This document shows, in pieces, positions 23,826 to 42,034 of a stretch of DNA of 64,000 nt (position 1 is its first letter; each line of letters opens with the position of its first letter). Below the pieces are notes generated by a model that saw only the letters and a program-made list of their open reading frames with translations, did not search any database and was not told the origin of the DNA. The position numbers and the translations under genes were made by a program. The DNA is from Bacilli bacterium (GTDB lineage: Bacteria > Bacillota_I > Bacilli_A > RF39 > UBA660): the NCBI GenBank assembly GCA_017434825.1, contig JAFSGC010000004.1:62001-126000 (forward strand), in the 5' to 3' direction.

Positions 23826-23854
23826 TTTGGCTTTTGCTTCTTATGTTTTATAAT
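23826..23854 (+). promoter_or_regulatory. Promoter of structured RNA
   Basis: TTTGGC (23826-23831), a 17-nt spacer and TATAAT (23849-23854). The expected start is at about 23861, exactly the first base of the 5' arm of the long-range stem, which supports a discrete transcript. Confidence 0.65.
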
Positions 23855-23860
23855 AACCGT

Positions 23861-24097
23861 AGAGATACCAAAGGTGCTTCCTCGCAGTCCAATTTGAAGA
23901 TTCGATATCAAAATGGAAAGTGAGGTGATGTCCTATGTACAAGGAATTTAATGGAAACAATTTTAGCGGTAATTATACTGCTATTAATACTCCGCGAAAA
24001 GAAAGACAACTAAAAATAAAAGCACCATATCATATTGATAAGGTGCCGCACCAAATATAATTGGACTAGAGGCACCGCATGGTATCTCTTTTTTTGT
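23861..24097 (+). ncRNA. Free-standing structured RNA with paired ends, enclosing a small ORF
   Basis: The first 34 nt pair with the end of the transcript in three blocks: 23861-23869 with 24081-24089 (9 bp), 23873-23877 with 24072-24076 (5 bp), and 23886-23894 with 24059-24067 (9 bp). The 3' arm runs into a T7-8 run, so the outer stem is also the intrinsic terminator. The enclosed region has a second hairpin (24022-24026/24042-24046 plus 24028-24032/24036-24040). A giant-loop hairpin whose 3' side is a terminator recalls the skipping-rope RNA class, from memory only. No plus-strand gene follows, so it probably acts in trans or is an mRNA for the small ORF. Confidence 0.7.
23935..24060 (+). 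CDS. 41-aa small ORF inside structured RNA
   Basis: The ORF starts ATG TAC AAG with a strong RBS (GTGAGGTGATG, 4-5 nt before the ATG) and stops at TAA 24058-24060. The peptide is basic and hydrophilic, starting MYKEFNGNNFSGNYTAINTP and ending DKVPHQI, with no transmembrane helix. The stop codon overlaps the first bases of the 3' arm of the long stem, so a ribosome finishing translation would block that stem. Whether it is translated is not known; the strong RBS is the main support. Confidence 0.5.
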   Translation: MYKEFNGNNFSGNYTAINTPRKERQLKIKAPYHIDKVPHQI

Positions 24098-24211
24098 CCA
24101 ACAAAGAATAGAAACAGAATAAATTAAATCTATTCATCAATATTATATACACATTTGATGCAAAAATGCAAATATATGAATTATTATATCAACTTATTTT
24201 AGTTACTAAAT
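24098..24211. other. Intergenic spacer, nothing recognised
   Basis: This AT-rich spacer between the structured RNA terminator and the tRNA-Glu terminator has no convincing ORF, hairpin or promoter. Confidence 0.4.
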
Positions 24212-24249: not shown

Positions 24250-24326
24250 TGGTAACCCGTACGGGGTTCGAACCCGTGAATGCCACCTTGAGAAAGTGGT
24301 GTGTTAGGCCGCTTCACCAACGGGCT
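24250..24326 (-). tRNA. tRNA-Glu (anticodon CTC)
   Basis: On the minus strand, acceptor AGCCCGT (24326-24320) pairs with ACGGGTT (24260-24254), followed by A and an encoded CCA. The anticodon loop is TTCTCAA in a CCACT/GGTGG stem, and the T-loop is GGGTTCGAACCCC. Anticodon CTC reads GAG. A TATAAT at 24357-24352 could serve as its promoter. It lies between the aminopeptidase gene end and its own terminator. Confidence 0.92.
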
Positions 24327-41820: not shown

Positions 41821-41866
41821 AAATAAAAGATGGTTACCTAAGGGCGAAAAACCGCGGTACCACCTT
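41821..41866 (-). terminator. T-box terminator hairpin
   Basis: On the minus strand AAGGTGGTACC can pair with GGTAACCATCTT, followed by TTTTATTTT. It is the OFF structure competing with the antiterminator that contains the T-box sequence. The hairpin ends directly before the HD gene RBS GGAGG. Confidence 0.8.
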
Positions 41867-42034
41867 AATTAAATCTCTTTATGTCTTAATGCGACTAACA
41901 GCAAATCCTATTTACTTAGAAATGCAACTCACAAGCTACCTTCATTTAATTACGTATTAAGAAAAGCTTTCAGCATATTACTTTTCATCTCTGTTAATCT
42001 AATTAAACTACTCCTCTTGGTCTTCGTTTTTACA
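41822..42034 (-). promoter_or_regulatory. T-box leader for HD hydrolase-valS operon
   Basis: The minus-strand leader contains the diagnostic T-box block AAGGTGGTACCGCGG (41869-41855) and the following CGCCCTT. Stem I features such as GACCAAGAGGAGTAG lie near its 5' end. T-box leaders bind a tRNA whose anticodon matches a specifier codon, and open transcription when it is uncharged. A candidate specifier is GTA (41939-41937) in GAAGGTAGC, fitting valine and valS; the exact register is inference. Confidence 0.9.

Follow-up and report, generated by a model that had tools for sequence, protein, structure and literature searches.

A probable new type I toxin–antitoxin family carried by phages and small-genome bacteria

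We identified an element of 237 nucleotides in the genome of a bacterium of the class Bacilli that belongs, with a probability of roughly 0.82, to a new family of type I toxin–antitoxin (TA) systems borne by phages as well as by chromosomes. The element lies within a 64,000-nucleotide stretch of DNA that was analyzed as a whole and is referred to here as the window. A conserved hydrophobic open reading frame (ORF), covarying arms at the two ends of the element, antisense promoter and terminator signals, and the occurrence of copies in both phages and chromosomes all support this reading. The family of the putative toxin is outside Pfam, NCBIfam, PHROGs and Rfam, and the literature against which it was compared consisted of open-access papers. 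Type I systems are known from few phyla and are difficult to detect by sequence (PMC12390103). The features of the window element are collected in Table 1.

Table 1. Features of the element, with positions counted from the first nucleotide of the window.
Feature	Position	Strand	Remarks
Sense promoter TTGGCT-16-TATAAT	23827..23854	+	Predicted start ~23861, the first base of the 5' arm
5' arm: AGAGATACC, GGTGC, CCTC (anti-Shine-Dalgarno), AGTCCAATT	23861..23894	+	Covaries with 3' arm
Hairpin CCTC..GTCC/GGA..GAGG hiding the Shine-Dalgarno	23880..23925	+	Minimum free energy (MFE) structure, also of two relatives
Shine-Dalgarno region GAGGTGATG	23922..23930	+	
Leader ORF, 41 codons, strong ribosome-binding site; overlaps toxin ORF in other frame	23935..24060	+	
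Putative toxin ORF METILAVIILLLILREKKDN, 20 aa, one membrane helix, charged C-terminus	23951..24013	+	
Predicted antisense RNA (antitoxin), ~120 nt, own hairpin at start	24012..24135	-	Promoter and terminator signals
Predicted antisense terminator hairpin after toxin stop	24022..24046	-	Minus-strand U-tract is the complement of ~24010-24021
3' arm: AATTGGACT, GAGG/GGCACC, GGTATCTCT	24059..24089	+	Covaries with 5' arm
T-run, sense transcript end, directly 3' of the 3' arm	24089..24095	+	
Convergent antisense promoter TTGCAT-18-TATAAT	24142..24171	-	

Relatives of the element and their conserved peptide

A copy of the element in another genome of the same genus (G007) is 74% identical to that of the window and adopts the same fold (z -7.5). 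The two sequences were used to build a covariance model (R1), which was run on 291 genomes from this family and at E ≤ 1 matched 58 of them, with weak and false matches included. Match sites of R1 were inspected singly, and searches were extended with a second model (R2) across the class and a third (R3) on the element's own genome. Model matches L097, L098, L102 and L104 were dropped, being apparent coding sequence without arms or peptide. The curated set, collected with models that derive from the structure of the element itself, holds 57 elements from 47 genomes, 46 of which belong to the same family; 41 of the elements are non-redundant. One clear element (L117) comes from outside the family but within the class. 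The genome of the window carries a second, divergent element, which belongs to group 2 (L108, G000:C20:17295-17508; toxin MSKKDCLIFFLILIIFLLILLLFIVLI), and its two copies represent different subfamilies. Tandem duplicates a few hundred bases apart were seen on G217:C30 (L059 and L081) and on G199:C32 (L089). Exact motif scans contributed no members, as their viral-contig matches were unrelated coding sequence and another scan was empty, and BLAST of the element against phages and plasmids gave no convincing match.

Each of the 57 curated elements encodes a hydrophobic ORF of 17-33 amino acids with one membrane helix. The peptides of group 1, which comprises most elements, are typically MEYLVILVVLLVL...KD, and those of group 2 resemble MSKKDFLIFSLIILIF.... 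Across 11 independent pairs, substitutions at the first, second and third codon positions of this ORF number 34, 13 and 50, a pattern that points to selection acting on the toxin frame; counted by leader codons, these substitutions would leave the third position most conserved. Because the ORF was selected partly for its hydrophobicity, the codon-position test is the more independent evidence. The initial annotation had singled out the 41-codon ORF, which does exist and has a strong ribosome-binding site, but judging from the sequences the conserved product is the 20-residue hydrophobic ORF in another frame. Type I toxins are shorter than 60 amino acids, with a membrane helix and a charged C-terminus (PMC6563280), and the putative toxin is likewise a small hydrophobic peptide with a single membrane helix. 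It has no sequence match to a described toxin family in Pfam or NCBIfam: neither NCBIfam nor PHROGs holds a matching family, and Pfam returned sub-threshold matches only, among them Ibs_toxin at E 0.48, far below the cut-off.

The relatives occur in two settings. Six contigs of IMG/VR have strong matches (E<1e-21; L132, L143, L147, L149, L154 and L155), the elements of L149 and L154 being identical. An integrase, HNH-like proteins or an endolysin are found near the phage copies that were examined (names from reading translations), and the G007 copy adjoins prophage lysis genes. L132, L143, L154 and L155 have a recurrent phage neighborhood of small HNH-like proteins, with an integrase or endolysin in some. 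Chromosomal copies are found among housekeeping genes and have no common neighbor. A tRNA gene is present within 1 kb of the element at 8 of 41 loci, where ~2 would be expected from the 30 tRNAs of the element's own genome, and in six of these eight the tRNA 3' end points toward the element. The window is among the six: the 3' end of a tRNA-Glu gene (24250-24326) faces the element at a distance of 160 nt. This excess is consistent with arrival via integrases at tRNA genes.

Some further features were noted. On the minus strand of the window, a perfect TTGACA-17-TATAAT promoter with TG (23810-23782) is directed away from the element and toward an ORF of 167 aa that has no above-cut-off match in Pfam, and a T-box leader (RF00230) is found at 41837-42033, also on the minus strand. 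In a small-genome bacterium, the end of an OLE RNA (RF01071, E 1.2e-17; L062:1-125) is located ~1.4 kb from an element.

The endolysin or HNH genes that adjoin the phage copies would also suit an antisense-controlled small hydrophobic peptide that is not a toxin, for instance a phage lysis regulator or a membrane-stress peptide. We consider such a role improbable, given that the entire layout, described below, matches type I loci and that many copies sit amid unrelated housekeeping genes.

Sense transcript and overlapping reading frames

The initial annotation placed the start of transcription exactly at the 5' arm and proposed that this arm pairs over a long range with the end of the transcript. 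Both proposals hold. The predicted start is the first base of the arm, and promoters occur at the corresponding place in 26 of the 41 non-redundant elements at p ≤ 0.1, against 4.1 expected. In the window, the arm blocks AGAGATACC/GGTATCTCT (9 bp), GGTGC/GCACC, CCTC/GAGG and AGTCCAATT/AATTGGACT are able to pair, and the 237-nt RNA folds with an MFE of -73.8 kcal/mol (z -7.13), which 0 of 200 shuffles equaled. The two outer blocks are joined end to end in the MFE structure, whereas the local hairpin that covers the Shine-Dalgarno takes up CCTC and GTCC from the 5' arm.

Comparison of relatives revealed that the arms covary almost completely, and the anticipated compensatory changes are present. 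Among the 41 non-redundant elements, the arm duplex energy is -36.4 kcal/mol for own arms and -18.2 kcal/mol for swapped arms (0 of 5000 permutations), with element boundaries having been fixed partly via arm pairing. The named structure in alignment A7 has 94.5% standard pairs and 81 double-change cells, with a covariation score of 0.437 against 0.263 when shuffled and at most 0.12 when slid; as that structure was derived from the same sequences, the swap test is the cleaner evidence.

Skipping-rope RNA has a long end stem, and the layout had initially been likened to it. This likeness did not survive comparison with Rfam: covariance models gave no match to the element above threshold, and searching the local stretch to E ≤ 10 yielded low-scoring chance matches only, so skipping-rope and the other Rfam families were rejected. 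ARAGORN found no tmRNA.

In group 1, the best Shine-Dalgarno belongs to an upstream start, usually 16 nt before that of the toxin. The frame relation between leader and toxin is identical in 19 of the 23 group 1 elements with a leader call, giving this group a leader ORF and an overlapping toxin ORF in different frames, as in hok. Group 2 elements keep the hydrophobic ORF and have no leader ORF. Across the membrane segment an open leader frame is to be expected, because the hydrophobic NTN codons there are read as T-ending codons, which are never stops. Past the toxin stop, the leader frame extends up to the 3' arm, with a median open length of 21 codons compared with 8 for other frames (p=0.003, 0.0005), which makes translation of the leader plausible, as for mok/hok. 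The GGAC motif and the leader stop showed no fixed register. We read the 41-codon ORF, from its position and frame, as a mok-like overlapping leader. Its strong ribosome-binding site and start, together with its openness past the toxin stop, could instead suggest a dual-function or structured non-coding RNA with the 41-codon peptide as its product. This is very unlikely, since substitutions in the overlap fall at sites that a conserved leader protein would forbid, group 2 has the hydrophobic ORF without any leader, and NNT codons account for part of the ORF's length.

The Shine-Dalgarno of the putative leader tends to be concealed, with an unpaired value of 0.24 against 0.41 in controls, and is less accessible than controls in 31 of 37 elements. 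Folding with or without the 3' arm leaves it hidden either way, with a small effect only, and no strong antisense-driven switch is therefore predicted. For the same reason, we rejected the idea that the 3' arm acts as a strict switch to release the Shine-Dalgarno.

At the other end of the transcript, at least five of seven nucleotides after the 3' arm are T in 39 of 41 elements. In 21 of 41 elements no local hairpin at or below -6 kcal/mol stands before the T-run, for which reason we suggest that the end-to-end helix itself may be the terminator stem. The window element has a weak local hairpin (-7.6 kcal/mol) ahead of its T-run; the end-to-end helix is thus not necessarily the sole terminator stem there. 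The terminator first assigned to the 3' arm is in keeping with the T-run directly after the arm, with this hairpin as a possible other stem. A MITE-like mobile element, whose arms would be transposase sites, could account for the inverted repeat, for the scattering of copies and for the presence of several in some genomes, but its likelihood is negligible, as the arms change jointly rather than being conserved as sites, a promoter marks their start and a T-run their end, and the two copies in the window's genome come from different subfamilies.

Signals for an antisense RNA

Downstream of the element a convergent promoter is found on the minus strand, and the G007 copy has an antisense promoter of the same TTGCAT-18-TATAAT layout. 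At p ≤ 0.1, minus-strand promoters are present downstream of 31 of the 41 elements, whereas 4.1 would be expected and a plus-strand control gave 2 of 41. In 37 of 41 elements an A-tract precedes the stem of the hairpin after the toxin stop, and in 2 of 41 a T-tract follows it, a pattern suggesting termination of minus-strand transcripts alone. Coevolution links the stem of this hairpin to the 5' arm (0 of 5000 permutations). The antisense RNA predicted from these signals would face the 3' untranslated part and the 3' arm of the mRNA, not the toxin ORF. The arm-derived part of this RNA carries an anti-Shine-Dalgarno stretch, as follows from the mirror relation between the two arms. Predicted pairing of the antisense RNA to the Shine-Dalgarno is no better for own than for swapped pairs, and a specific interaction of this kind was rejected.

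Three features missed by the initial annotation, namely the convergent promoter, the terminator confined to the antisense strand and the hairpin over the Shine-Dalgarno, together favor a type I TA locus over a generic dual-function RNA. Of the early suggestion that this may be a new RNA or dual-function RNA family, the parts that stand are a covarying RNA with long-range end pairing, the lack of an Rfam family and coding capacity inside the RNA; the generic dual-function RNA gives way to type I TA signals.

Proposed mechanism and relation to known systems

We propose that the sense RNA is the mRNA for a 20-residue hydrophobic membrane peptide. New full-length mRNA would be largely inert, with its ends paired and the local hairpin over its Shine-Dalgarno. 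Ribosomes probably load at the strong ribosome-binding site of the leader ORF, and the toxin start, ~16 nt beyond the leader start and in another frame, would be reached via coupling or reinitiation, comparable to mok/hok. The convergent antisense RNA would pair with the 3' arm and 3' untranslated region of the mRNA, and likely keeps it silent or triggers its decay. Toxin would be released upon loss of the locus, through which the system may play a role in maintenance, or upon processing of the mRNA 3' end.

Several described systems offer parallels. The ends of the toxin mRNA are paired with each other in hok and aapA (PMC6733600), and mok is the leader ORF of hok (PMC4147584). The element resembles hok/mok/Sok of plasmid R1 in its predicted folded, inert mRNA with paired ends, its leader overlapping a small putative membrane toxin and its predicted antisense control (PMC4147584, PMC6733600). 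It differs in that the putative toxin is much shorter and unrelated, the predicted antisense RNA is at the 3' end and not over the leader start, and the bacterial lineage is another. With aapA/IsoA of Helicobacter, in which a 5'-3' long-distance interaction renders the primary toxin mRNA inert (PMC6733600), it shares a predicted interaction of this kind, whereas toxin, phylum and antisense position are all different.

Antisense overlap at the 3' side is known from par and txpA, in par outside the toxin ORF (PMC4147584), and SR4 acts on the 3' part of the bsrG RNA (PMC6562991). The Bacillus subtilis pairs txpA/RatA and bsrG/SR4 have an antisense RNA on the 3' part of the toxin mRNA, a membrane peptide and a prophage location (PMC4147584, PMC6562991, PMC6563280), similar to what is predicted here, but the toxins have no homology in NCBIfam or Pfam, and the element described here has a 5' arm at its predicted transcription start and an overlapping leader ORF. 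The par RNAI/RNAII system (Fst, Enterococcus pAD1) has convergent RNAs that overlap outside the coding region, a hidden Shine-Dalgarno and a short hydrophobic toxin (PMC4147584, PMC8309996), as predicted for the element; unlike the element, par has direct repeats in place of inverted arms and a shared terminator, and neither Pfam nor NCBIfam matches the putative toxin to Fst. The Ibs toxins of Escherichia coli, at ~19 residues and nearly all hydrophobic, are of similar size and composition (PMC8309996), but the Pfam match to them is the sub-threshold one given above, and Sib antisense RNA spans the whole ibs gene (PMC4147584).

By comparison with these systems, each feature of the element has a precedent in a different type I system, and it is their combination that is new. 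A fuller description, which we offer tentatively and at slightly less than even odds, is of an uncatalogued, phage-spread TA family with a sealed mRNA whose 5' end is half of its terminator stem, a leader of the mok type, an antisense RNA that overlaps the mRNA at its 3' side and imitates its 5' arm, and four coevolving segments that can swap partners.

The structure-based search exposes a large TA-like family in small-genome bacteria and their phages, whose putative toxins go down to 17 residues in length. The search supplies dozens of natural variants for studying the interplay of end pairing, leader translation and antisense RNA, as well as a candidate RNA family and a candidate peptide family overlooked by annotation pipelines.
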